DNA from: Firmicutes bacterium ADurb.Bin080
Lineage (GTDB): Bacteria > Bacillota > Clostridia > Christensenellales > DTU072
DNA length: 47,374 nt
Reading direction: 5' to 3'
Assembly: GCA_002070965.1 (NCBI GenBank)
Contig: MWEH01000183.1
Coordinates: 1-47,374, forward strand
Every line of letters begins with the position of its first letter. The stretch's first letter is position 1. The notes beneath the pieces were generated by a model. That model had not been told where the DNA came from and made no database searches. It saw nothing but the letters and a program-made list of their open reading frames with translations. Below are positions 21,489 through 43,101 of the stretch, piece after piece. Made by a program: the position numbers and the translations under genes.

Positions 21489-22883
21489 TTACTCTTTAAG
21501 CCCAAAATATTTATTTGCATTTGAGTAGCAAATGTTGCTTATTGTCTCCCCGATCAAACCTAAGTCTTCTGTTATTTCTCCATTTTTAACTAGATTACCA
21601 AAGTAATTGCAAATTATTCGTCTGAAATAATGATGGCGAGGGTAGGACAAAAAGGACCTACTGTCAGTTAGCATTCCAATAAAAGCTCCTATGTGAGAGA
21701 CAGAAGAAAGATCGGATAAGTGTTTTTCCATCCCTGACTTATTGTCTAAAAACCACCAGGCAGCGCCATATTGGATTTTCCCTACTGAAGAAGCGTCCTG
21801 AAAACATCCGGCAAGAGAAGCTAATTCCAGATTCATTTTAGGGTTCAGATTAAACAAAATGACTTTTGGAAGGGAATTTTCACAGTTTAGTCCATCAAGT
21901 AATTTTGATAGATTTGATGTGGAATCTGCATCAGAAATACTGTCAAAACCGGTGTCTAGCCCTAGTTTATCCAGCATTATAGAGTTATTATTGCGCATAG
22001 CCCCTATATGTATTTCAGTTACAATGTTGTATTTTGCATAGAGTTTTAATAGGAAATATGTCATATATCCTTTAAATGTATCTGCTTCCCCTAAGTTCAA
22101 CACATTATTTCTTAATAATTTTGAAAAAACTTTTTCGGCTTCTTCTCTACTACTTATTGGCAAAGCCTTCTCGAGGGCTATATCGGCAGCCCTACACCCT
22201 ACTGATACAAACTCCTTCAACCTATCTTCAAGTATGTTCTCGAGATCTGACAAAGAAGAGAGATACCTGCCATTGACTTCCAGTTTTTTAAGGTTCTCCA
22301 GATAAGTCTTCGCTTCGATATTCATTACTTTATCTGCCCGAAACGCAGGGAGAACGGAAAATTCCGAAAACTTGCTTTTAAGCTTTATGAATGTTGATAA
22401 GTCATCAAAAACCTCATTGGTGGTGAATATATATTTCACCTTTGATTTTTTTATTATGTCAGAGGGTTTAATATGGTTTTGCTTAATATATTTATTGCAG
22501 TGATTCCAAATGTATTCTGCATTTTTTTCATTAATCTCTTTATCGCAGTCAAAGTACTCTTCAAGCTCCATTTGAGACCAATGATATAGAGGGTTTCCGA
22601 AGGCTGAAGCAACTGTTTTACAATAAGTAATGAATTTTTCTTTGTCGCTTTTATTGCCGGTAATATATTGTTCATCGATTCCAAAATTTCTCATCAAACG
22701 CCATTTATAATGATCGCCCTTAAGCCATACCGAATATATGCTGTCAAACTCTTTATCTGCAAGAAGTTCCTTTTCAGACAAGTGGCAGTGATAATCAAAT
22801 ATAGGCATATCTTTTGCATATTCGAAATACAGTTTTTCGGCCACTTTATTTGTTAATAAAAAATTGTCTTTTATATAACTCAT
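21489..22883 (-). CDS. uxaC: Glucuronate/galacturonate isomerase
   Basis: The 464-residue product matches UxaC over its whole length: FDYHCHLSEKE near the start with the metal-binding His32/His34, then NPLYHWSQMELEEYF, TEIHIGAMRNNN and a GKIQYGAAWWFLD block. It interconverts D-galacturonate and D-tagaturonate (and D-glucuronate and D-fructuronate), the entry step of hexuronate breakdown. It overlaps the UxaB-UxaA fusion gene by 4 bases (ATGA), with GGAG ahead of its start inside that gene, so the three enzyme activities are made from one message. The 100-bp region downstream shows no terminator. Confidence 0.93.
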   Translation of the reverse strand: MSYIKDNFLLTNKVAEKLYFEYAKDMPIFDYHCHLSEKELLADKEFDSIYSVWLKGDHYKWRLMRNFGIDEQYITGNKSDKEKFITYCKTVASAFGNPLYHWSQMELEEYFDCDKEINEKNAEYIWNHCNKYIKQNHIKPSDIIKKSKVKYIFTTNEVFDDLSTFIKLKSKFSEFSVLPAFRADKVMNIEAKTYLENLKKLEVNGRYLSSLSDLENILEDRLKEFVSVGCRAADIALEKALPISSREEAEKVFSKLLRNNVLNLGEADTFKGYMTYFLLKLYAKYNIVTEIHIGAMRNNNSIMLDKLGLDTGFDSISDADSTSNLSKLLDGLNCENSLPKVILFNLNPKMNLELASLAGCFQDASSVGKIQYGAAWWFLDNKSGMEKHLSDLSSVSHIGAFIGMLTDSRSFLSYPRHHYFRRIICNYFGNLVKNGEITEDLGLIGETISNICYSNANKYFGLKE

Positions 22884-25648
22884 AATGTTACTCCTGTTTT
22901 ATAAAATGCTATTTCAGCATATTTTTCACTCTTACAAAGATATTTTCCGTTAATAGTATCTAAAATAAGTTCATACAGACCATCCTCACTATCAGAATAG
23001 GCACAATGATCTATCCAGTCCGTTTTCCACGCAGTTAGATTCCAATTGGAGGATATTTTCAGGGTGGGTACGCATGAGGAAAATGGGGTACCTCTACCTG
23101 TTGTAAACAGAATCAACTGGCACCCAGCTGCAGCCAGTGCAGTCGAAGCGATCAAGTCATTACCAGGGGCAGAAAGAACACTTAAGCCCTGTTTTTCCCT
23201 AATATCCCCATACTTGAGTACATCAACTATAGGAAAGCTTCCCCCTTTTAAAATACACCCAAGGGATTTTTCTTCAAGAGTAGTAATCCCTCCCTCTTTA
23301 TTTCCCGGGCTGGGATTTTCATATATTGGCATACCGCATGCGCGGTAATTATTCTTATACTCTTCAATCAATGCTAAAAGTCTATCTGCGACTTCCTTGC
23401 TTATACACTTATTCACTACCCTTTGCTCGGCACCGAACATCTCGGGAATCTCTGTAAGTATTGCGCTTCCTCCGTTTTCAATGATCCTGTCGGATATTTC
23501 GCCAACACACGGGTTTGCAGTTATACCTGAAAGACCATCGCTCCCCCCACATTTAAGCCCCACTGTCAGCGCAGAAAACGGAAATTCTCTTCTTTCCATC
23601 TTTTCTAACTTGATAAGAAATGATTTTATTAATTCTGTCCCATGGTCTATTTCATCTAAGACATCTTGAGCGTTGAAAAAAGCAAATTGTCCCTTATTGT
23701 ACGGTTCAAGCTCATTTATAATCCCTTGAAGGGTATTATTCTCGCATCCCAGCCCCACAAATAGGGTATATGCTGCATTAGGATTTCTCGCAAGTGAGCA
23801 TAATAATTTCCTGATGTTTGTACTATCTTCTCCAAGCTGGCTGCATCCGAACTGGTGTGTGAGAGCGAAGATTCCGTCTGCCCTTCCTTCGTTAATTTGA
23901 TTTCCGATTTTTTCCAGTTCCTTGCATATCCCATTTACACACCCAACCGTGGGGATAATGTAAATATACTTTCTAATCCCAGCACCGTTGGCATTCGGGT
24001 AACCGAGAAAAGAGGAGTTTTCTTTTACAAGGTTAGTATTTTCTTCCTTCTCATAAATTATAGGCTTTATTTCATCCAGACAGGTAACCATGTTATGAGT
24101 GTGTATCCATTCCTCCTCTTTGATATCCTTTGTGGCTTTACCTATCTCTGCGCCATACTTAATGATGGAATCTCCTTTCTTAATGTCACAACGTGCGATT
24201 TTATGCCCTGTGGATACTAATCCTTTTTCCAAAGAAATCAATACATTATCCTTTGGGTTTATCAAGGTATTTTTCATAAGTGGTAACCCACCTCCTTCGA
24301 ATAGAGAAATGTATTTTTCTACAGTTTCGTACAGGTTGTCCATCCCATTAAGATCAATACCCCATATCTTTTCAGAAAGAAACTCCTTTAATGTTCCTCC
24401 ATTCATGAAAAACTCCAGGTAAGTCGGATCATCTCTTAGCTCATGTTCATAAAAAAAACAAGTGTGAAAAAAGAATCCTTCCCCATTCTTATATAGAGAC
24501 TTGTAGGTATATATAAGATACGAAAAACCTAAAGTGAGGTTCTTTGGAATTTTACCAAACTTGTTGTAATAATCGATGAATGTGGGCAGAACTCTTGCCT
24601 TCCACTTTGAAATACTGTTCAAAGATATTGATATCAACTTATGATTTAAGAATTCGTTTTGTAATCTGATAATAGTATTAAAAGCATAGCACCTATTTGA
24701 TGCAGAGTCTCCCTCTACAAACGGTAAAATTTCAAATTTTAGGGTATCCATTACGAACGACAATATATCTATGTTTTCCATTGCTTTGCTGACAGTTTCC
24801 AATTCGTTCCATAATGCGGCGAAAACCATGTTAGTATGGCTTCCGTTAAGAATTCTTACCTTGCGTTTTTTATATATTTCGATGTCTTCAACAATCTCCA
24901 CATCAATTCCATTGTTCCCCTGAACAATATAGTCCGAAATATTACCTTTGTTTTCAATAACCCATAATCCAAAGGGTTCCGAAACGGTAAGCAGTTCATC
25001 ATAATCCTCTTGATTCAGTAATCCTTGATAATATTCCTCCATATCTTCAGGCGGATACCCCGATACTATACGGTCAACAAGTGTATTACAGAAATAATTC
25101 TTTTCTTCATTCCAAATATGGAAATCCTCCGGGAGATTCCAGAGTTTAATATAACTATTCACACACTCTTTCAGCCGATCTGCGTTTTTCTCAATCAGCT
25201 CAACAGGTAATATGTATACTCCATCCTTTCCGGCTAAGAACCGATTGTATAAAAAAACAGTTAATTTCGCAGGGTAGGAGCTGTTTTTTAAGTCGTCCTC
25301 TCTATCTTTTTCGCTGAAATATATCCCGGCCTCAGTAGTGTTAGAAATAACGAGTTTAAGATCATTGTCCTTAGCCAGCCGTTCAAAAGATTGTTTGTCA
25401 TAATACGGAAAAGCCTCTTTTACAACTGTGATTTTCCGGGCTTCTTCGATCGTACCCCCATCATGTACCCCAGTAAAAACAATATGATAAATGTTGTTCT
25501 GTTTAATAAACTTATCTAAGTTACCCCTTTCACCAGGCTTAATTATACTGACAGAGTAATCTCCGCCTTTCTCATTTAAAATATCAAAATAATGGTCTGC
25601 AAAAGCTCTGAGAAAATTCCCCTCTCCAAATTGTGCTACCTTTATCAT
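22880..25648 (-). CDS. Fused tagaturonate reductase - altronate dehydratase (UxaB-UxaA)
   Basis: One 922-residue frame contains two enzymes. Residues 1-455 are a UxaB/mannitol-dehydrogenase-type reductase (VAQFGEGNFLRAF nucleotide site, KVRILNGSHT substrate block) that reduces tagaturonate to D-altronate. Residues about 457-922 are altronate dehydratase UxaA: an N-terminal SAF domain (HKIARCDIKKGDSIIKYG, EWIHTHNM) and the GD_AH domain (TVGCVNGICKEL, THQFGCSQLGED, LKCGGSDGLSGITANP) making 2-keto-3-deoxygluconate. Both halves look complete and all hallmark residues are present. In E. coli these are separate genes. GGGAGAG precedes the ATG. KDG kinase and aldolase are not in the window. Confidence 0.9.
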   Translation of the reverse strand: MIKVAQFGEGNFLRAFADHYFDILNEKGGDYSVSIIKPGERGNLDKFIKQNNIYHIVFTGVHDGGTIEEARKITVVKEAFPYYDKQSFERLAKDNDLKLVISNTTEAGIYFSEKDREDDLKNSSYPAKLTVFLYNRFLAGKDGVYILPVELIEKNADRLKECVNSYIKLWNLPEDFHIWNEEKNYFCNTLVDRIVSGYPPEDMEEYYQGLLNQEDYDELLTVSEPFGLWVIENKGNISDYIVQGNNGIDVEIVEDIEIYKKRKVRILNGSHTNMVFAALWNELETVSKAMENIDILSFVMDTLKFEILPFVEGDSASNRCYAFNTIIRLQNEFLNHKLISISLNSISKWKARVLPTFIDYYNKFGKIPKNLTLGFSYLIYTYKSLYKNGEGFFFHTCFFYEHELRDDPTYLEFFMNGGTLKEFLSEKIWGIDLNGMDNLYETVEKYISLFEGGGLPLMKNTLINPKDNVLISLEKGLVSTGHKIARCDIKKGDSIIKYGAEIGKATKDIKEEEWIHTHNMVTCLDEIKPIIYEKEENTNLVKENSSFLGYPNANGAGIRKYIYIIPTVGCVNGICKELEKIGNQINEGRADGIFALTHQFGCSQLGEDSTNIRKLLCSLARNPNAAYTLFVGLGCENNTLQGIINELEPYNKGQFAFFNAQDVLDEIDHGTELIKSFLIKLEKMERREFPFSALTVGLKCGGSDGLSGITANPCVGEISDRIIENGGSAILTEIPEMFGAEQRVVNKCISKEVADRLLALIEEYKNNYRACGMPIYENPSPGNKEGGITTLEEKSLGCILKGGSFPIVDVLKYGDIREKQGLSVLSAPGNDLIASTALAAAGCQLILFTTGRGTPFSSCVPTLKISSNWNLTAWKTDWIDHCAYSDSEDGLYELILDTINGKYLCKSEKYAEIAFYKTGVTL

Positions 25649-32810: not shown

Positions 32811-34256
32811 TTAATTTTTCAGCCAATCAGCAAGAACATCCTTATTACATTCAATCATTTCTTGAAATAGTGCTCTTTGTTTATCTTGGGTCAGACGTGC
32901 TACGGAAGGGTCTCTCATGAATACCTTCAATAAACCTTCTTTGTCATTTTCAAAAAAAGCTTTTACATAGTCTCTTTGATTCTCTGCATGCAAAATTTCC
33001 CTGTTTCGCAGAAAATCGTTTTGAATCTCCCCCGCACAAATGGGCTCAATTTTCCCTTCTGAAAACCTTGCATTAGTCTCAACTGCAGTTCCATATGGAA
33101 GCCCGGGTGCTTGGCCAAGATTGGGGATGTTTACATTTGATACAATATCCCCCAGACCACTTAAGGCTATAAGCTGAAGAACACCTTCTTCCCCGCTTGA
33201 TTTAATTCTGGTTTTCAAAAATCCTGACGCTTGCAGTTTAAGCTGGTTACGCTTCAAAAAGTCTCTAAGGAGTCTGTTTCTAACGGTAGTAAGAATAAAT
33301 CCTGACTTCCCGTAATGTTTCTTTCCAATAGGAAGATAACTATCGGGAACAAACTCAGAAAGATGTCTATCTCCTGCCGCACCAAATACTCCATATTTTT
33401 CAAAAATATCAAATTTTACAATGTTATTCAGAAAGGGAGAACGCCATTCCTTAAACATAGGAACAAATGCCTTATATATAGGCATAATATCCTTATCCTT
33501 GTATTTGGCTTCGTTAATTAACGTAAAATGATTTACTCCCTGTACATTGGGGTGAATCTCATGTCTGTCCGTATTAGGATGCTTGAAAGATGTAAATTTA
33601 ATATTTGCTCTGCGAAGTGCTCTTTTTACTTCTTTGAGGTTACTCTCCATGAAGTATTTTTGTCCTACCTCATCAAGTGAATTGAACAAATCAAGTACCC
33701 CCGCAATCAATTTTTGGCTGCTGTATACTTCGTGGCAACACCCAAAAGCTTTTATTTCTGGAAAGCTGGTATAGAGAGCATTAACACACATATCCAGAGG
33801 ATTTGTGTAGTTTATGACCCAAGCTAAAGGACAGCATTCCTTAATCTTTTCTCCAAAAAAGAAGAAATAACCCAGTGTCCGCAAAGCTCTTGAATACCCG
33901 CCAGGGCCAACAGTATCCCCAACTGGTTGATAGATACCATACCTCTCTGGATAATGCACATCCCAATGCATATTATGAAGAGAATACGGAAGGATAGATA
34001 TCAAAACTATATCTGCACCAGTGAGAGCTTTCTCAATATTTGGCTCTACTTCACAACTCCATTTTGATTTAACCTTATCTCTGTTTTGGGAAACCATTCT
34101 TGAAAAACACTTCTGGTTAAGCAGAGCCGCATCATTATCTATATCATAAAGACGAATGATTCCTTCAAGTTTGTCCTGAATCAACAAATCGGAGAAATAT
34201 TTCTGAGCCCAATTTTTGCTTCCACCACCAATATATGCTATGGTTACTTGCTTCAT
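32811..34256 (-). CDS. GH4 alpha-glycosidase, alpha-galacturonidase-like
   Basis: The 481-residue enzyme has the NAD-binding start IAYIGGGSKNW, the metal motif CCHE (C174/H175), NYTNPLDM and GVNHF, all diagnostic of family GH4, which cleaves glycosides by NAD- and metal-dependent oxidation and elimination. The VGDTVGPGG segment and the neighbourhood of uxaC/uxaBA favour alpha-galacturonidase over alpha-glucosidase, but the sequence alone does not prove it. It would free galacturonate from pectin disaccharides in the cytoplasm. A GGAGGAG ribosome site precedes the ATG. The carrier gene follows after 156 bp. Confidence 0.82.
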   Translation of the reverse strand: MKQVTIAYIGGGSKNWAQKYFSDLLIQDKLEGIIRLYDIDNDAALLNQKCFSRMVSQNRDKVKSKWSCEVEPNIEKALTGADIVLISILPYSLHNMHWDVHYPERYGIYQPVGDTVGPGGYSRALRTLGYFFFFGEKIKECCPLAWVINYTNPLDMCVNALYTSFPEIKAFGCCHEVYSSQKLIAGVLDLFNSLDEVGQKYFMESNLKEVKRALRRANIKFTSFKHPNTDRHEIHPNVQGVNHFTLINEAKYKDKDIMPIYKAFVPMFKEWRSPFLNNIVKFDIFEKYGVFGAAGDRHLSEFVPDSYLPIGKKHYGKSGFILTTVRNRLLRDFLKRNQLKLQASGFLKTRIKSSGEEGVLQLIALSGLGDIVSNVNIPNLGQAPGLPYGTAVETNARFSEGKIEPICAGEIQNDFLRNREILHAENQRDYVKAFFENDKEGLLKVFMRDPSVARLTQDKQRALFQEMIECNKDVLADWLKN

Positions 34257-34538: not shown

Positions 34539-36482
34539 CTACTTCAAACAAATTATTAGTTTGCCACCTTGTATTATGTCCTTAGGGGTAATTTCATACT
34601 TTTCTAGCGGCTTACCATTCAAAGTAACTGATGACAAGTAGAACGCCTTTTCCCTCTCTCTTTTTACCTCAATAAAGAAGGGATTGTCTTGATTAATTAC
34701 TGCTTTTTCAATTTGCGGGCAACCTATTAATATTCTGTTTGTGCCAATAATTGGGAACAAACCAAGTGCATTCCAAACATACCAAGAAGATAATCCACCA
34801 GAATCATCATTTCCGCACAAGCCCCCATCATCAATTTGGAATTGATTGGTTAGTATTTCATTCAACACTTCATTTTGTCTATCATGTCTGCCAAGTAATC
34901 CATATAGATACGGGGTTTCCATATCTGGTTCGTTATTTAAGCCCTCAAATCTCCTTACCTTATTCCCATATTTATTTGCTGCCCATGGAAGGGAAAAACT
35001 TCCAAACCTTTTACATCTCTTTCCATTATATCCAAAGAAACTATCCAAGGCTCTAAGTAACTCCTCTTTGTCAGAAAAGGTGATTCTTTGATCGGTACTT
35101 GCGCTTACTCTAAAACTATAATTGACATTGCTCCCTTCATAATATCTTGCGCCTTCTGTTTTAAGAAGCACTCCCTTTTCATCGAATATCCCTTTTAAAA
35201 GCTCCTTTATCTGCTCTTCGATTTTTTCTTCCCCTAAGTCTGGGTTTGCGTTCTTAATAGAGAAGAAAGCATCTGCTATGTCTAAATTGAAAGTATAATT
35301 TGGTTTTATTGGTAACCCCTTTCGTATATGAAAAAGTATATCCTTTTTTCTTTGCAAAAGAATATCGGAATATTTATACTCAACGCCGTAGATCTCAGCA
35401 GTATTTATTAGAATGTTTGCGATACAAGCTGATTGTTCACTAAATCCATAAGATTTATCATTTAAATGCTTAGAATTATGGAAAAACCCTTCTTCAGAAA
35501 AGAGAGTTGTTAGTCCTTTGACAATATCCGAACCATAATCGGGATAGAGCAAAAAAATCAACGGAATCTGGGTTTTATACATATCCCACAGTGTCAAAAA
35601 ATCAAATACTCTACCCTCTTTATTGTAGATAAATGGGCGTTTCAAACAATGATATAAGGAAGTATAGAATAATCTTTCTACCCTACTTGACGCCTCTATG
35701 TCTATTTTGTTGAGTAAATCCATCCATTTTGTTTGAACATAGTTTTCTTCTTCTATAAAACTTTGCTCTGCTGAAATAAAACTATCAAATGAGTAAGCCA
35801 ATTGAAAATCAACCTGATTTCCGGATAAGCAAATCTCATTCTCATCTATTTTCTCAATAGATCCTTTACGTAGCTTAATGACCCAGAATATCTTTATAGA
35901 TTCATAATCTACATAAATTCGTAAGTATTCTCCATCCTGAACGATATTACTAGCATATCTTTTCGGTCGATAATTGTGATTTGACAAACCTGCATAACCA
36001 GGGATAATTCTGACTGGATGTTTGGATGTTATTGAGTATGCAACATAGTGACTTCCCATTTTTGCATCCATCTCATACTCTCTGGTTTTTATTTTATATC
36101 CATCTAATGCATAATTCTCATAGATAAGTGGTTCCATTTTGGGAGAGGGTTTAATTAAAAAATAATTATAAAAATTCTTTATATCCCCTGTCCCACTCGG
36201 GGCAAAATGAGTAATCCCTTTAATACTATTTTTGGAGATAAAACTCGAGGGTGAACCTGAAGTAGACCGGTTATATTTCCCATATCCCGTCGGGTATCCT
36301 CCCGAATAAGGAACTGAGCAAAAAGAGGAAAATGGCGGTTGCGGAGAGGGGGCAAGGTTACCTATATTCGGTTTATAAAAAAACCACCTTTCAGCTAATG
36401 AGCCGGCTTTTCTGCATGTAAAAGGCTCACTACCCCACTTATAGTTTATAATTGAATTATAATCTCTCATTTTCCCTCTCAC
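34539..36482 (-). CDS. GH92 glycoside hydrolase (exo-alpha-mannosidase family), cytoplasmic
   Basis: The 647-residue protein carries GH92 signatures: YYEGSNVNYSF (acid region), METPYLYGLLGRHDRQNEVLNE split over 520-545, and GLCGNDDSGGLSSWYVWNALG with the catalytic and calcium-binding GNDD at 557-560. GH92 enzymes are calcium-dependent exo-alpha-mannosidases; most characterised ones are secreted, but this has no signal peptide. It overlaps the methyltransferase gene by 4 bases (GTGA) and is the last gene of the corrinoid operon. The start may be GTG 36482 or ATG 36470, the latter behind GAGAGGG. A methylated or otherwise modified mannoside is a possible substrate, by context only. Confidence 0.83.
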   Translation of the reverse strand: MRGKMRDYNSIINYKWGSEPFTCRKAGSLAERWFFYKPNIGNLAPSPQPPFSSFCSVPYSGGYPTGYGKYNRSTSGSPSSFISKNSIKGITHFAPSGTGDIKNFYNYFLIKPSPKMEPLIYENYALDGYKIKTREYEMDAKMGSHYVAYSITSKHPVRIIPGYAGLSNHNYRPKRYASNIVQDGEYLRIYVDYESIKIFWVIKLRKGSIEKIDENEICLSGNQVDFQLAYSFDSFISAEQSFIEEENYVQTKWMDLLNKIDIEASSRVERLFYTSLYHCLKRPFIYNKEGRVFDFLTLWDMYKTQIPLIFLLYPDYGSDIVKGLTTLFSEEGFFHNSKHLNDKSYGFSEQSACIANILINTAEIYGVEYKYSDILLQRKKDILFHIRKGLPIKPNYTFNLDIADAFFSIKNANPDLGEEKIEEQIKELLKGIFDEKGVLLKTEGARYYEGSNVNYSFRVSASTDQRITFSDKEELLRALDSFFGYNGKRCKRFGSFSLPWAANKYGNKVRRFEGLNNEPDMETPYLYGLLGRHDRQNEVLNEILTNQFQIDDGGLCGNDDSGGLSSWYVWNALGLFPIIGTNRILIGCPQIEKAVINQDNPFFIEVKREREKAFYLSSVTLNGKPLEKYEITPKDIIQGGKLIICLK

Positions 36483-37477
36483 GATATGTTCTCACAGTAA
36501 TAGTCCTTAACTGCCTCGAAATAAGCGTCAATGTTATCCCAATCGGAATCAAATGGAATGTCACAGCCCGAACTGATTATGAAATTCGGATATACCGAGC
36601 AGCGTGTCAAAAGATCAATACTACTTGAATATATCTTATCTTTTGTCGAGTTTCTAAAATCAACAGGATTAATATTACCCATAACAATCACGTCACTTGG
36701 CATCCTCTTTAGTACCTCTTCCATATCGACCGCATTTCCAAAATGATATATATCTGCACCCAGTTCTTTTATCGAAGGTATAAGAGGAATGGTATTTCCG
36801 CAGTTATGATAAACCAAGACAAAGTCTTCATCGTTTACCTCTTCGAAAATGCGTTTTACATATCTGTTTGAAAACTCCTCGCAGAGTGTAGGTGACAACA
36901 ATCCAGCAGCAGGCTCGGCCATAATAACCCCATCTGCACCAACTTTTTTAAAAGCATTAATGTAGTTGATTATGAATGTGGTGCATTTCTCCAAAAGCTT
37001 ATGTACAGATTCTTCATCATCATAGCAGGCCATCATTAATTCGGTCATATCATACAACCTACCTGACAGCGAATAAGGTCCAATTACCCCGCAAAATACA
37101 GGGACTTCTGAAATCTGTTGTTTAGCCAGTCGAACACCTTCTATATATATTCCTGTGCGTCCCTTTCCAACCGGGGGTATCAAAACTTCATTTACTTCGC
37201 TTATATCCGAAATAATACCTTTTGTAACGGTAGGTATTTCCTGAGCAGAATATTTTATTTCCGCTCCAAATGCTTCTGCCTCAACAGATAAATCCATCAT
37301 ATTTAGCGCTGCTGAAACCTTACAACGATTTAATATGGCACTCATCCCTTCGACCTGTTTTTTACTATTAGTCACCAGCTCCAAAACACTTGATAAAGTC
37401 AAAGACGTAGAGGGGAAAGACAATATGGGCATAGTTTTATCTTTCTCAGAAATCATGTCTTTTATTATCTTTTTCAT
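36479..37477 (-). CDS. UROD/MtaA-family cobalamin-dependent methyltransferase
   Basis: The 332-residue protein belongs to the uroporphyrinogen-decarboxylase superfamily branch of MtaA/CmuA. It has the zinc ligands H224-x-C226 (VYHNCGN) and C305 (SSGCDIP), which are absent from true heme decarboxylases. Such enzymes move a methyl group between a corrinoid protein and a thiol or another acceptor, or from a methyl donor to the corrinoid. AGGGAGAG precedes the ATG. It follows the RACo-like gene by 9 bases and overlaps GH92. Only one methyltransferase is present, so either the donor-side or the acceptor-side enzyme must be elsewhere. Confidence 0.82.
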   Translation of the reverse strand: MKKIIKDMISEKDKTMPILSFPSTSLTLSSVLELVTNSKKQVEGMSAILNRCKVSAALNMMDLSVEAEAFGAEIKYSAQEIPTVTKGIISDISEVNEVLIPPVGKGRTGIYIEGVRLAKQQISEVPVFCGVIGPYSLSGRLYDMTELMMACYDDEESVHKLLEKCTTFIINYINAFKKVGADGVIMAEPAAGLLSPTLCEEFSNRYVKRIFEEVNDEDFVLVYHNCGNTIPLIPSIKELGADIYHFGNAVDMEEVLKRMPSDVIVMGNINPVDFRNSTKDKIYSSSIDLLTRCSVYPNFIISSGCDIPFDSDWDNIDAYFEAVKDYYCENIS

Positions 37478-37486
37478 TTTCTCTCC

Positions 37487-38914
37487 CTAGAAACCTATGT
37501 ACTCAATAAATGTATCATTAAATTTTACTTGTTCGTTAAGTTCGACAGGTTTTGAAAGTTTTACTACAAGTCTTTCATCTGCTTTTCCCTGAGCGCATAA
37601 TATTGTCCCTTTCAAAGCAGCATTTGCAATAGATACACAACGATCAGTAAAAGCCCTTGGTATTATCCCGCAAATTGCTGCACTTTCAACAGAAATGTAG
37701 CTTGAAAAACCACCCGCCAGATAAACTTTATCTATCTCTTCATAAGAAGTCCCCGAGTTATCCAGCAGAGTTTCTATCCCGCTTCGTATTGCTGCTTTAG
37801 CAAGCTGGAATTCCCTTATGTCCTTTTGCGTTAATACAATATTATTGATAATAGGGAATCCTTTTTCTAGGGTAAGGTATCCTGTACTATCTATTATTCC
37901 ATGTTTAATAAGTTCTGCTATTACATCGATCAAACCTGTCCCGCATAGGCCTATTGGTTTTTTACCTATATAATTAATTTCTGGAATACCACTCTCCCCA
38001 AGTCTGAAGCTGGTAATTGCACCTTCAGTTGCTGGCATTCCACAAGATATATTCGCTCCTTCGAAACAAGGCCCTGCGGCGGTAGAAGTTGTTATATACT
38101 CCTTGCTGCTAAAAACCGCTACCTCGGCATTAGTTCCAAAATCAATCCAGATACTCTTTTTCCCTTCCCTAGGAATTTGTGCTGTAACTAATCCTGCCGC
38201 TACATCACTTCCAACAAAAGAAGATATTCCCGATAAAGAAAGAACTTTACACTCAAAAGGAAATCCAATTTCCTTTGACTTACCTTCTTTTCTTTCTAAA
38301 AACCTTGCAGTATATGGGTGATACCCAAGCGTGGTACAATCCTCTCCCCAAAAAATGTGAAGCATTGTAGTATTCCCACATACGAAGATTTCTCTAACAG
38401 CCTTTAAAAAATACTTTTTAACAAGGTTATTAATGGCATTAGAAATAGAATCAATCAAAGGCCTTTTTAATGCTTCTGTTCCTTCTATATTAACCGCATT
38501 AATCCGGGAAATTACATCGGAGCCAAACCTGCTTTGAGGATTCTTGAAGGTGACGGTTTCCGTTACTCCATCCTCACCATCCAATAAAGCTATTGTCACC
38601 GTCGTAGTCCCTATATCCAAAGCAAAACATGCTTTATCTCCATGAAACTTTCCAGTCTCTTTTATACCTTGTTGGACATAAATATTCTCTTCCAAATATG
38701 GGATAAAAATTTCCATATTCTCAGTCAAAAATGTAGAGCAAGAGAGAATACCTATACCACTTTTTTCAACTAGGCACCTACCGCATGTTCCCTTTCCCCC
38801 ACAGGTCAAAGGGAGATCATATCCATTTCTTAAAAGCACCTTCGAAAGTATTTCTCCCTCAGATGCTAAAATCTCTCTTCCATCGTTTTTGACTTTTATT
38901 ACTATTTGCCTCAT
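37487..38914 (-). CDS. RACo-like ASKHA corrinoid-protein activator with [2Fe-2S] domain
   Basis: The 475-residue protein has an N-terminal plant-type [2Fe-2S] ferredoxin domain with C38, C44, C47 and C59 (CGGKGTCGRC and LSCST). An ASKHA ATPase domain follows (FALDIGTTTVTIALL at 97-111, FVGSDVAAG, IDFGTNAEVAVF, VYLAGGFSSY). RACo proteins use ATP to return inactive Co(II) corrinoid to Co(I). At 475 residues it is shorter than the 630-residue Carboxydothermus protein and probably lacks the middle domain. Its presence shows that the neighbouring corrinoid protein cycles through Co(I), i.e. does methyl transfer. It lies 77 bp after the corrinoid gene. Confidence 0.87.
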   Translation of the reverse strand: MRQIVIKVKNDGREILASEGEILSKVLLRNGYDLPLTCGGKGTCGRCLVEKSGIGILSCSTFLTENMEIFIPYLEENIYVQQGIKETGKFHGDKACFALDIGTTTVTIALLDGEDGVTETVTFKNPQSRFGSDVISRINAVNIEGTEALKRPLIDSISNAINNLVKKYFLKAVREIFVCGNTTMLHIFWGEDCTTLGYHPYTARFLERKEGKSKEIGFPFECKVLSLSGISSFVGSDVAAGLVTAQIPREGKKSIWIDFGTNAEVAVFSSKEYITTSTAAGPCFEGANISCGMPATEGAITSFRLGESGIPEINYIGKKPIGLCGTGLIDVIAELIKHGIIDSTGYLTLEKGFPIINNIVLTQKDIREFQLAKAAIRSGIETLLDNSGTSYEEIDKVYLAGGFSSYISVESAAICGIIPRAFTDRCVSIANAALKGTILCAQGKADERLVVKLSKPVELNEQVKFNDTFIEYIGF

Positions 38915-38991
38915 TTTTTCTCTTAGTTAACTTAAAGAATCTTTTTTATGGACCAATTTATAATGTTATTGCATAGACAACCGGTCTCTTT

Positions 38992-39630
38992 TTATTGGTT
39001 TAAACAAAACTTTTTTGCTACTTCTGCTGCGCTAGCCGCATCAGCCGTAAATGCATCAGCTCCTATCTTTTCTGCAAATTCACTTGTTAATGGCGCCCCA
39101 CCAACCATAACTTTAACCTTATTGCGGATTCCCGCAGCCACCAATGAGTCAATTATCTCCTTTTGATTTGCCATTGTGGTGGTTAATAGTGCGGATAAGC
39201 AAACCAAGGCTGCTCCACTGCTCTTTACAGCTTCTACAACCTTCTTTCCATCGACATCAACCCCGAGGTCTATACACTCAATTCCAACCCCTTCTAACAT
39301 CATTTTGACTAAATTCTTTCCGACATCATGCAAATCACCTTTTACTGTGCAAATTATGGCTTTGCCTATTGGCTTTACGCCCTCTTTTAAAAGAGCCGGC
39401 CGCAAAATCTCTGTACCTTTATTCATGGCACGTGCTGATATTAAAACTTCCGGGACAAAAATCTCCCCACTTTTAAACTTTGATCCAATAACCTCCATCG
39501 CTGGGATCATAGCCTTATTTAAAATATCCGCAGCTGAGACACCCGAATCAAGTGCTTCTTTTACGGCAAGCTGAATGTCCTTTGATTTTCCTTTCTGAAT
39601 CAATTCGTTAACTGTTTGTAAATATTCCAT
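38992..39630 (-). CDS. MtaC/MttC-type corrinoid protein
   Basis: The 212-residue protein has the helical cap (residues 1-85) and the Rossmann B12 domain with GDLHDVGKNLV (98-108; His101 is the lower cobalt ligand), CLSALLTTTM and VMVGGAPL. This is the methyl-carrying subunit of corrinoid methyltransferases. It has no fused methyltransferase. An AGGAAGGGGG site precedes the ATG. It begins an operon with the RACo-like activator, UROD methyltransferase and GH92. No cobalamin riboswitch is seen in the leader. Confidence 0.92.
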   Translation of the reverse strand: MEYLQTVNELIQKGKSKDIQLAVKEALDSGVSAADILNKAMIPAMEVIGSKFKSGEIFVPEVLISARAMNKGTEILRPALLKEGVKPIGKAIICTVKGDLHDVGKNLVKMMLEGVGIECIDLGVDVDGKKVVEAVKSSGAALVCLSALLTTTMANQKEIIDSLVAAGIRNKVKVMVGGAPLTSEFAEKIGADAFTADAASAAEVAKKFCLNQ

Positions 39631-39689
39631 TAAAATTCCCCCTTCCTTTTCTTTTAGATTTTAACATAGCTGTAATTACCATTATATAT

Positions 39690-39719
39690 AAAAAATGGGA
39701 TTATATACAAAAATCCCAT
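39690..39719 (-). terminator. Terminator of the activase-glycyl radical enzyme gene
   Basis: On the minus strand ATGGGATT (39712-39719) pairs with AATCCCAT (39695-39702) and is followed by TTTTTTATA. It separates the glycyl radical gene from the corrinoid operon. Within the same 40 bases TTGTAT-18-TATAAT could be the promoter of the corrinoid operon, so the site may do both jobs. Otherwise 39631-39828 is empty. Confidence 0.65.
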
Positions 39720-39828
39720 ATATTATATTCTTGCATGCATCTCTTTCTTAACTCAAACCTAATTATAAGTACGTTTAATAACTATTCCTGCTTAAGACCT
39801 AATATTTCTTTATTCAATGCAAATGCGG

Positions 39829-42800
39829 TTATGCATAGCAGGTGCGGTTTATTATTATCTTCTTTAAATCATCAGACAATTCATTGAAGTATGAGCAATA
39901 CCCTGCCACCCTTACCATTAAATACTTATACTTTTCCGGGTTATTATATGCATCTATCAGGATATCTCTGCTTATAACATTGGGTTGGAATTGCATTCCA
40001 CCTTTTGTCAAAAATACTTTGAAAATGCTTGCAAGATTTTCAATTCCCTCCTGTCCAGGGAATAAAGCCGAATCTATGTGGAAAGTAACTGTTGTGCCAT
40101 TTGGGGCAAGATCCTTATAGTTAATTGCCGATACGGCATTTAGGGAAGACATTAAATTACTTTCTTCCATTCCATAGTGAGGGGTTACGCTATTTGCAAG
40201 AGGAACTCCCTTCAGTCTACCCGACGGTAAAGCCTGAGTCTTAAGACCATATCTATCATTGACATTCAAAGCATAATACCCAGCAACATATTTTCCGCCT
40301 CTGTCAGGAGTCGGGACATTCGCAAGTGCATCATTCCAAATCCCTAGCACTAGGTCTACCCATTTTGCGGGAACTTTCGAAGAATCATCTCCAAACTTAG
40401 GAATAGAATTGATGTCAGCAAGTATTTTTTGATTTTCTTCTCCCTCGTAATTTGAATCAACTGCCTTAATAATATCCAACATAGTGTATTTTTTCTCAGT
40501 AAACACCAGTTTGTCGATAGCATAGAGAGAGTCTGCGGCATCTGTTATACCTACACCTTGGATTCCGCTACTAATAAAGTCTGTACCCCCTTGATAAGCA
40601 CATTTCCCCCTCCTTAAGCAACCATCATACAAAGATGATGCCAGCGGAGTTGTGAAGTCCTTTCCTAAAATTTCAATAATCCGTTGTTGGTCGGCTAATA
40701 CTGAATTTGTAATTGCCTGCAATCTTTCCTTATATCTACTCAACAGCTCTTCCATTGAAGAGGGGGGATTGTAAACATACATTCCTTTTTTTATTTTACG
40801 TTTTTCAATGGATTTGTGTCTTAAGTTAACCATCATACTGCAATAAGGACATTTCTTATATTTCCCAAAGAAATAATCAAAAAACCTATCTATTACCAGC
40901 TTAAGATGTTCCTTGTTGCTGTAATTCCATAAGTCGTGTTCATGTCCTTTTATAGCTTGCAACAAAGGAAGAGTCACATTAACGTTCGCACTGTCTGTAT
41001 TTCCAAAATGATCGTCGCTTGCTATTGGCTCGACACAACCTACTATTGCGTAATTTCTTGCATTTTCGAGAGAGGTCCCATGTTTTCTGACTATAGCATC
41101 AAAATATTCTTCATCACTAAAAAGCTCGGGCATCGGGCAGCCATTTATATATATTTCCGCCAATCTATCTAAATATTTTTTGGGGCTATTTTTATTTATT
41201 CGGGCGCACATATTAATCGCAAGAGGTTGCAATTCGCAAGCATCTATTAGCATATATGTCAGATCGTTTGTTGCATCATTTCCTTCTTTATCTGTGCCTC
41301 CAAAAGTTAGAGCTTGATCGACAGACAAAGTCTCAAACAGCTTTGCAATATTCAAAAGGCTATCCCCGTCATTAACTAAGATTACCTCATCAATCTTTAA
41401 AGTGAATAGTGCCAAAAGTTCTTTTGCTTCCTCGTAGGTAATCCTTCCAGCAGCCAAATCCGCTTTGTAGTAAGGATATAGGATTTGGTCGAATCGGCCA
41501 AAACTCACTGCATTTTCATAAGCCTCATTACAAATGGCTATTTGTATGAAAAGAATAGCTTGCAACGCTTCATGGAAGGTCTCGGCTGGATATCTCGGAA
41601 CCTTTTTGCAGATAGCAGCCATTTTTTCTAGTTCCTTTTTCCTTTCAGGGTTATTCTCATTTATGGCCATATCTGTTAAATGAGCACTATATCTATCAGC
41701 CCAATTCGCTAAACCTTCTAGAGCGATTATCGCCCCTTCATAAAAACTTTGATCATTTTCAGGATGGGCTTTTGCTTCTTCCTTTACTCTTTCAATAAGA
41801 CCGGTTGTTCCCTTTTCCAAAATCCTGTCATAATTGGGGATAAAATGAGCAATTGCAGCCATGTTGTTGTTAAACCCTGCAATCATTTCCGAGCTACGCC
41901 CCAGCATTGCCATTAACTTCGGGAGCGTGTTCGCTACTTTACCCAGAACACCTTTTTTAATCCAGAAGGGTGCTATGCGTGTATAAAAATACCACCTGTC
42001 TTTTGCGGATATTTTAAAAGATACCGGAGTTTGCTTATTAATCTTATACAAAAAAGTGAGATCCAGAACTCCATATTGCTCAACCCAGACCTGCCCACCG
42101 CATCTCTTTGCAGTAAAGTTACCAACAAGAAGCTCTTTGTCATAAACCGTTATGGATTTATTCTCAAGAACGTATTTTAATCTTTTTGCCCTATGTATGT
42201 GAACCGGCTCTTTAAATCCATTTTTTCTATAAAACTGAGTCTTTAATTTATCAACTTCTATGCAAAGGGATCTCCCAGCTTTACGAATATCTTGCTGTAT
42301 CTGATTAACTCTATCAGTGAACTCAGCAGTTCTTTTAATGCTGTTTTCTTTAACGTTATATGCGTTAATCCCATTCTTCTTAAAAAACTCCAAACCCTGC
42401 TTTAAAGAAATAAGGCTTTGTTCGGGGGTGATGTTTAGCATCGGGATATCCAAATTAAGTCTCTTCGCCTTATCCTCATACATATTGTGATATTTTAAAA
42501 TCTCTATGGTGTCATACCCTAATGATTTTAAAAGTTCAGACATATCCTTAATATACTCTTCCTTATCATTCAATCCCGGAATCATGACCATACGAAATCT
42601 GATCTTAGCGTTGGTTTTTACTATTTTTTTGAGATTCTCTTGGATCAGAGAGTTTTCTATGCCGGTTAATTCTTTATGTTTTTCACTGTTGCCCGCAACT
42701 TTTATATCTATCAGAAATAAATCAACATAAGGTAAAACCATCTCTATCGTTGAGTAAGGAACACACAAAGTAGTTTCGACAGCCGTATTTATGCCCTCTT

Positions 42801-43101
42801 TCTTTATGGCAGATAATAAAGCTACCAGATTTTCCGGGTCCTGTATGAGTGGTTCCCCGCCACTTAACGTAACCCCTCCGCCCGATTCAAGATAATATTC
42901 CTTATCCCTTAAAATCTCTTCCAGAATTTCATCCAGTGTATTTTTTTCATACAAAGGTGTGTCTTTACTAAGCATTTCAGGGTTTTGGCACCATTTGCAT
43001 CTCAATGGACATCCCCTGAAAAAGACAGTGGTTCTTAGTCCGCTTCCATCCTGAACCGAAGTTCTTTGGATTTTAATAACGTTCATACTTTTTTCGTTCA
43101 T
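39829..43101 (-). CDS. Fused radical-SAM activase and glycyl radical enzyme in one polypeptide
   Basis: The 1090-residue frame is uninterrupted. Residues 1-255 are a PflA-type activase: C31-x3-C35-x2-C38 binds the SAM iron-sulfur cluster and SGGEP (80-84) contacts SAM; the ferredoxin insert of many dehydratase activases is absent. Residues about 258-1090 are a complete glycyl radical enzyme: thiyl C689 and E691 in VGCVEP, and the radical loop RVAGYCS with Gly1067. The C-x-E arrangement is that of eliminases such as glycerol, propanediol, choline and isethionate enzymes, so a dehydration or C-X cleavage of a small diol-like substrate is likely; the stretch after VGCVEP (IASDDHFGNTDSANVNVT) matches none I know. 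Normally activase and enzyme are separate genes. GGGGGAA precedes the ATG. It is flanked by its own promoter and terminator. Confidence 0.9.
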   Translation of the reverse strand: MNEKSMNVIKIQRTSVQDGSGLRTTVFFRGCPLRCKWCQNPEMLSKDTPLYEKNTLDEILEEILRDKEYYLESGGGVTLSGGEPLIQDPENLVALLSAIKKEGINTAVETTLCVPYSTIEMVLPYVDLFLIDIKVAGNSEKHKELTGIENSLIQENLKKIVKTNAKIRFRMVMIPGLNDKEEYIKDMSELLKSLGYDTIEILKYHNMYEDKAKRLNLDIPMLNITPEQSLISLKQGLEFFKKNGINAYNVKENSIKRTAEFTDRVNQIQQDIRKAGRSLCIEVDKLKTQFYRKNGFKEPVHIHRAKRLKYVLENKSITVYDKELLVGNFTAKRCGGQVWVEQYGVLDLTFLYKINKQTPVSFKISAKDRWYFYTRIAPFWIKKGVLGKVANTLPKLMAMLGRSSEMIAGFNNNMAAIAHFIPNYDRILEKGTTGLIERVKEEAKAHPENDQSFYEGAIIALEGLANWADRYSAHLTDMAINENNPERKKELEKMAAICKKVPRYPAETFHEALQAILFIQIAICNEAYENAVSFGRFDQILYPYYKADLAAGRITYEEAKELLALFTLKIDEVILVNDGDSLLNIAKLFETLSVDQALTFGGTDKEGNDATNDLTYMLIDACELQPLAINMCARINKNSPKKYLDRLAEIYINGCPMPELFSDEEYFDAIVRKHGTSLENARNYAIVGCVEPIASDDHFGNTDSANVNVTLPLLQAIKGHEHDLWNYSNKEHLKLVIDRFFDYFFGKYKKCPYCSMMVNLRHKSIEKRKIKKGMYVYNPPSSMEELLSRYKERLQAITNSVLADQQRIIEILGKDFTTPLASSLYDGCLRRGKCAYQGGTDFISSGIQGVGITDAADSLYAIDKLVFTEKKYTMLDIIKAVDSNYEGEENQKILADINSIPKFGDDSSKVPAKWVDLVLGIWNDALANVPTPDRGGKYVAGYYALNVNDRYGLKTQALPSGRLKGVPLANSVTPHYGMEESNLMSSLNAVSAINYKDLAPNGTTVTFHIDSALFPGQEGIENLASIFKVFLTKGGMQFQPNVISRDILIDAYNNPEKYKYLMVRVAGYCSYFNELSDDLKKIIINRTCYA

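Follow-up and report, generated by a model that had tools for sequence, protein, structure and literature searches.

The closest described relatives of the locus analysed here are the mlp type 1 MGC of anaerobic Firmicutes (Kountz and Balskus, PMC10418091), which combine a corrinoid protein and a RACo-type activator with MtaA-like methyltransferases of the UROD fold that carry His-Cys-Cys zinc ligands, and which contain no folate methyltransferase. The type is defined by at least two Mlps (Mlp2 and Mlp3), a corrinoid protein and Ram/RACo encoded in one direction within 2 kb, with no folate methylase within 20 kb. His-Cys-Cys marks the S-methyltransferases of the superfamily, an assignment that extends to S/Se substrates, while in oxygen-acting members Cys is replaced by carboxylates or other residues (PMC10418091). 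The corrinoid O-demethylases of acetogens consist of MT-I, a corrinoid protein, MT-II and an activator, and the MtaA/MtbA enzymes are methylcobalamin:coenzyme M methyltransferases. For the removal of methyl ethers from sugars, the only enzyme found in the literature searched requires oxygen, namely a P450 that demethylates 6-O-methyl-galactose (Reisky et al. 2018, as cited in PMC12316285), and a 2025 paper (PMC12316285) states that an anaerobic route is undiscovered. No description of corrinoid demethylation of sugars was found in the same literature.

The locus lies in the window, i.e. the whole stretch of 47,374 nucleotides that was analysed, and comprises the following features:

39631..39828, minus strand: intergenic region of 198 bases, of which about 70 bases are similar in a second copy of the locus
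38992..39630, minus strand: corrinoid (B12-binding) methyl carrier protein, MtgC/MtbC-like, 212 aa; Pfam PF02607 (B12-binding_2) and PF02310 (B12-binding)
37487..38914, minus strand: RACo-type ATP-dependent corrinoid reductive activator, 475 aa; PF14574, PF17651 and a 2Fe-2S domain
36479..37477, minus strand: MtaA-like UROD-fold methyltransferase with a His224-Cys226-Cys305 zinc motif, 332 aa; PF01208; probably acceptor side
34539..36470 (open reading frame to 36482), minus strand: GH92-family glycosidase, probably cytoplasmic; PF07971; start most likely ATG 36470
32811..34256, minus strand: GH4 glycosidase; PF02056 and PF11975
31143..32654, minus strand: GPH-type sugar symporter (MFS_2); PF13347
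28009..31047, minus strand: GH106-like protein, possible rhamnosidase; PF17132 with E 5e-6, below the curated cut-off

Like the type 1 MGC, this operon combines an MtaA-like His-Cys-Cys UROD with a corrinoid protein and a RACo-type activator, and no folate methylase lies within 20 kb, since MtrH is absent from the genome and the Pterin_bind protein is encoded elsewhere. By contrast, it encodes one Mlp rather than at least two, carries glycosidases and a sugar symporter, and has no S/Se genes. With the acetogen O-demethylases it shares the carrier, the ATP-dependent activator and the UROD-fold logic; it differs from these four-component operons in lacking both MT-I and an MtrH-type MT-II and in having glycoside genes. 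The P450 demethylase catalyses the type of reaction that we propose here, in which a sugar loses its methyl ether in the course of glycan utilisation, but needs oxygen.

Gene order and its conservation

A preliminary description of this DNA had recognised the corrinoid protein, RACo, UROD and GH92 genes as a unit. Pfam domains bear out these open reading frames and families; the unit itself is real but was drawn too small, as the GH4, GPH symporter and GH106-like genes continue on the same strand. Domain matches are far above cut-off for all families of the operon except GH106. The corrinoid protein scores 204 bits against NCBIfam MtgC_2 (cut-off 370). Apart from it, the genome encodes a single PF02607 protein, which is MetH-like. 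The activator has the 2Fe-2S, Raco_middle and RACo_C_ter domains of RACo, the latter two being the ASKHA middle and C-terminal domains. The GH92 assignment is given by both profile (PF07971, 193 bits) and fold, in that the best 39 PDB fold matches are all GH92, with only moderate confidence in the structure model and approximately 13-19% identity to solved GH92 members. Further downstream of the operon lie the uronate genes UxaC and a UxaB-UxaA fusion; the open reading frame at 22880-25648 (minus strand, 922 aa), which adjoins UxaC (21489-22883), fuses a mannitol-dehydrogenase-type reductase to an altronate dehydratase.

In the metagenome-assembled genome G594 of the same genus (84% complete, 4% contamination), we found one locus identical to the window and a second, diverged copy of the seven-gene unit, both in the same assembly. 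The order corrinoid-RACo-UROD-GH92-GH4-GPH-GH106-like is kept in the second copy (L162), in which the proteins are, in that order, 85, 69, 78, 60, 78, 77 and 69% identical to those of the window; runs of N mask parts of its UROD and GH92 genes. Because pS between the copies is near saturation (0.65-0.80) while pN is low (0.10-0.26), every gene, including GH92, is under constraint. Given the strong family matches and an order that has survived near-saturated synonymous divergence, the predicted gene grouping is not a matter of chance. We conclude, from sequence comparison, that the seven genes form a unit that has been conserved within a single genus.

Beyond the genus, the picture is different. 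At E 1e-15, the window UROD was detected only in G000, G594 and G584 among 40 genomes of the family, and GH92 adjoining corrinoid genes was not seen outside the genus in the genomes searched. Thus, the condition that the preliminary description had set against itself, i.e. that GH92 is not conserved beside corrinoid genes in relatives, applies outside the genus and does not apply to the diverged copy within it.

The gaps of 77 bases between the corrinoid and RACo genes and of 9 bases between RACo and UROD had been given exactly. The gap of -4 between UROD and GH92 had not, because it rests on a GTG start at 36482. In the diverged copy the protein likewise begins with MRDYNSIIN, encoded from an ATG that is preceded by a comparable purine-rich stretch, and the GTG is not kept; therefore, the GH92 start is most likely ATG 36470, 8 bases past the UROD stop, and the conserved start argues against the 4-base overlap, which is probably an artefact. 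In the same copy, the UROD frame as read stops about 70 bases before GH92, at a place where a run of N is masked. Strict translational coupling of the two genes, as originally proposed, is thus not upheld, and co-transcription is likely.

Upstream of the corrinoid gene, at a distance of 198 bases, lies the gene for a glycyl-radical enzyme that carries a radical-SAM activase as its N-terminal part (1,090 aa; 39829-43101, minus strand); its thiyl site reads GCVEP, as in dehydratase-type enzymes. Among the genomes searched, it was found only in the genus and in two genomes of the same family (62% identity), and the other 390 genomes of the class gave no match at E 1e-150. We considered it as a member of the module and rejected this, as the 62% homologues have no corrinoid-RACo-UROD genes beside them, the gap is 198 bases and the genomes are few; beside one homologue (L036) lies a convergent MetH. 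A terminator between the glycyl-radical and corrinoid genes, suggested by eye from a hairpin and T-run, was likewise rejected, since the scan was negative and the second copy lacks it. A search for an RNA element ahead of the operon gave no Rfam match.

The methyltransferase and its partners

The zinc-ligand motif of the window UROD, His224-x-Cys226 with Cys305, falls on the equivalent ligand positions of Methanosarcina MtaA in an alignment. The structure model (pLDDT 92.9) has a TM of 0.87 to MtaA (4ay8), and plain uroporphyrinogen decarboxylases match it nearly as well by fold. The protein therefore combines the UROD fold and His-Cys-Cys ligands by which MtaA-like (Mlp/SCMT) proteins are recognised. 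It differs from MtaA/MtbA in sequence, with 20% identity to MtaA of Methanosarcina mazei in a structural alignment, and in that coenzyme M is not expected in Clostridia. The identity by which SCMTs are recognised is more than 25% to a characterised member, and the comparison here covered this one MtaA. It scores below every NCBIfam cut-off (PRK06252, 149 bits; cut-off 244).

HxCG and GCDxP are kept in all of 80 relatives of the window UROD on genome contigs. Of 65 loci, 34 have a donor-like UROD within 4 kb of the member of this clade; for corrinoid proteins the number is 35, and for RACo it is 34. The ligand columns of three co-encoded UROD-like families read HDN (9/10), YCD (9/9) and LCH (18/34), with the assignment of columns approximate in very divergent members; they are mostly Asp- or His-containing and mostly lack His-Cys-Cys. 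Because His-Cys-Cys is invariant in the clade while the co-encoded URODs mostly differ, and read with PMC10418091, the window UROD is more likely a thiol-type, acceptor-side (MtaA-like) enzyme than a sugar demethylase. The simplest reading is that it is an acceptor-side enzyme common to clusters with different donor-side partners. The preliminary description had left the choice between donor and acceptor side to be made; the motif points to the acceptor side, and, being of the published S/Se type in all 80 relatives, it does not support demethylation of a sugar by this enzyme itself. The claim that the operon serves methyl transfer rather than isomerisation is supported.

An MtrH-like partner elsewhere in the genome, for which the preliminary description had suggested a search, was not found: MtrH-family proteins are absent from the genome itself and from 27 genomes carrying or close to the window UROD. 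Since, moreover, the sole pterin-binding protein of the genome is MetH-like and lies on another contig, the methyl acceptor is probably not folate via a known MT-II. In Flexilinea flocculi, a homocysteine S-methyltransferase gene follows the corrinoid gene; together with the absence of MtrH, this makes homocysteine a reasonable putative acceptor of the window UROD.

No donor-side enzyme was seen within or beside the operon. The preliminary description had held that a donor-side enzyme for methanol, methylamines or aromatics just outside the locus would count against it; none was seen there, and our genome-wide search covered the UROD and MtrH types. By Pfam search, the only other PF01208 proteins of the genome, a count that leaves aside UROD-like proteins too divergent for Pfam, are two UROD proteins encoded side by side on contig C127. 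A relative of one of them (tree distance 0.46) adjoins a third corrinoid cluster of G594, whose own genes include those for a GPH transporter and a donor-like UROD; for the second, the sampled genomes of the family gave no further match. The pair are candidates for donor-side enzymes. At L048:3561-7103 (minus strand), UROD-like proteins are encoded beside corrinoid, RACo and DUF2284 genes, and two of them, when scanned, had no Pfam match; thus, family searches can miss such donors.

The invariant His-Cys-Cys motif also suits a different explanation, that the window UROD is an S/Se (de)methylase of the mlp type in methyl-S/Se salvage, the glycosidases either sharing the transcript or cleaving a glycoside to free an S-methyl compound. 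Action on methyl-S/Se has been proposed for published clusters in which Mlp, a corrinoid protein and Ram/RACo occur with no folate methylase, and one Mlp2 showed selenide activity in vitro (PMC10418091); the absence of MtrH from the genome agrees with this. However, the operon contains only one Mlp and no sulfur genes beside it, and its conserved partners are sugar genes; we regard S/Se salvage as unlikely. Selenium salvage as such was discarded, as the genome has no selD above cut-off, and weak sub-threshold matches of the same kind are also present in controls.

Two single open reading frames, L073:7870-9435 (plus strand) and L038:10508-12040 (minus strand), each encode a whole corrinoid protein in fusion with an AraC-type regulator, an arrangement found at seven loci. 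These fusions are a possible methyl-corrinoid-sensing regulator.

Sugar genes beside the methyltransferase clade

The neighbours of the UROD clade include GPH transporters (L077, L090, L091, L139 and L168), GH106-like homologues and GH78 (L087 and L093), and in single cases GH123 (L075), GH38 (L042) and UxaE (L129). When 90 genes proximal to the clade were compared with 90 distal ones, MFS_2 (4), GH13 (3), GH78 (2), GH106 (2) and UxaE (2) occurred among the proximal genes and were not among the 25 distal families listed. These counts are small, and among the families listed they are suggestive of an enrichment of carbohydrate genes near the clade.

The strongest single case for a sugar link is Flexilinea flocculi TC1, in which a run (L136:3-12666, plus strand) encodes an H-D-G UROD, UxaC, UxaE, a LarA-like protein, SDR, HAD, 6PGD and PFK, followed on the same strand by the MtaA-like UROD of the clade, the corrinoid protein and the homocysteine S-methyltransferase. 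This run spans genes of general sugar metabolism, and the uronate link is one of position only. In a genome of the same family as the window, UxuA, SDR, two GFO/IDH and a GH92 homologue (39% identity) are encoded together without corrinoid genes (L157:3719-9923, plus strand). Altogether, the neighbour contexts favour uronic acids over plain mannosides, so that an O-methyl uronide becomes the most specific guess for the substrate, and the O-methyl mannoside of the preliminary description is not supported as methyl donor. A conserved tie to glycoside import and hydrolysis, of which it had drawn the glycosidase part, is supported by the second whole copy and by the recurring sugar genes; the GH92 link itself was seen only within the genus.

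Rhamnosidase-type enzymes such as GH78 and GH106-like proteins also cleave flavonoid glycosides. Their presence near the clade would fit removal of aromatic methoxyl groups, in which the donor would be a methoxylated plant phenolic, for example a flavonoid or lignin-like glycoside or a feruloylated sugar. The glycosidases would strip off its sugar, leaving an aglycone for the corrinoid system to demethylate; aryl methyl ethers are the substrates of known corrinoid O-demethylases (PMC8630106, PMC12915777). Against this, we saw no phenolic-processing genes in the operon, the neighbours in several genomes are uronate-pathway genes, and the known systems have an MtrH-type MT-II, which this genome lacks. 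An aromatic donor is, in our view, improbable.

Finally, the corrinoid module and the glycoside genes could share one transcript and serve separate pathways. The UROD clade has widely differing neighbours, and in five further genomes of the family the DNA read around the GH92 homologues, some of which was short, contains no corrinoid genes. Such co-location is doubtful, however, as the joint order outlasts near-saturated synonymous change and sugar transporters or glycosidases recur beside the clade in unrelated genomes.

A proposed route for sugar demethylation

Our preferred explanation is that the corrinoid system demethylates a methylated sugar taken up by the cell, which may be an O-methyl uronide. 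The GPH symporter would bring a small methylated glycoside into the cytoplasm, where the GH4, GH92 and GH106-like enzymes would break it down. The methyl-ether carbon would then pass to the Co(I) corrinoid protein via a donor-side methyltransferase that is probably encoded elsewhere, with the C127 URODs as candidates, and RACo would rescue carriers oxidised to Co(II). At its zinc site, the window UROD would bind a thiol, most simply homocysteine, and remove the methyl group from the carrier protein. At its most specific, the substrate might be a fragment containing 4-O-methylglucuronate.

The conserved seven-gene order, the invariant His-Cys-Cys motif, the lack of MtrH, the relative of a C127 UROD in a corrinoid cluster and the recurring sugar genes count for sugar demethylation. 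Against it count the lack of a donor in the operon, the restriction of the GH92 link to the genus and the finding of both copies in one assembly with 4% contamination; moreover, His-Cys-Cys is no less compatible with substrates containing sulfur or selenium. In total, we put demethylation of an imported sugar at not far short of an even chance. We are more cautious, and decidedly tentative, about the broader claim that anaerobic corrinoid demethylation of methyl-ether sugars, in which a thiol and not folate (via an MtrH-type enzyme) would receive the methyl group, is encoded partly within glycoside-utilisation operons. What the predicted genes do show is a conserved operon in which corrinoid methyl transfer is linked to glycan use.

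Polysaccharides of plants and algae commonly contain methyl-ether sugars. The conserved operon of corrinoid and glycoside genes is a testable candidate for the demethylation of such sugars by microbes without oxygen, and the uronate-linked version in the isolate Flexilinea flocculi, together with the window operon, provides concrete genes with which this may be tested.
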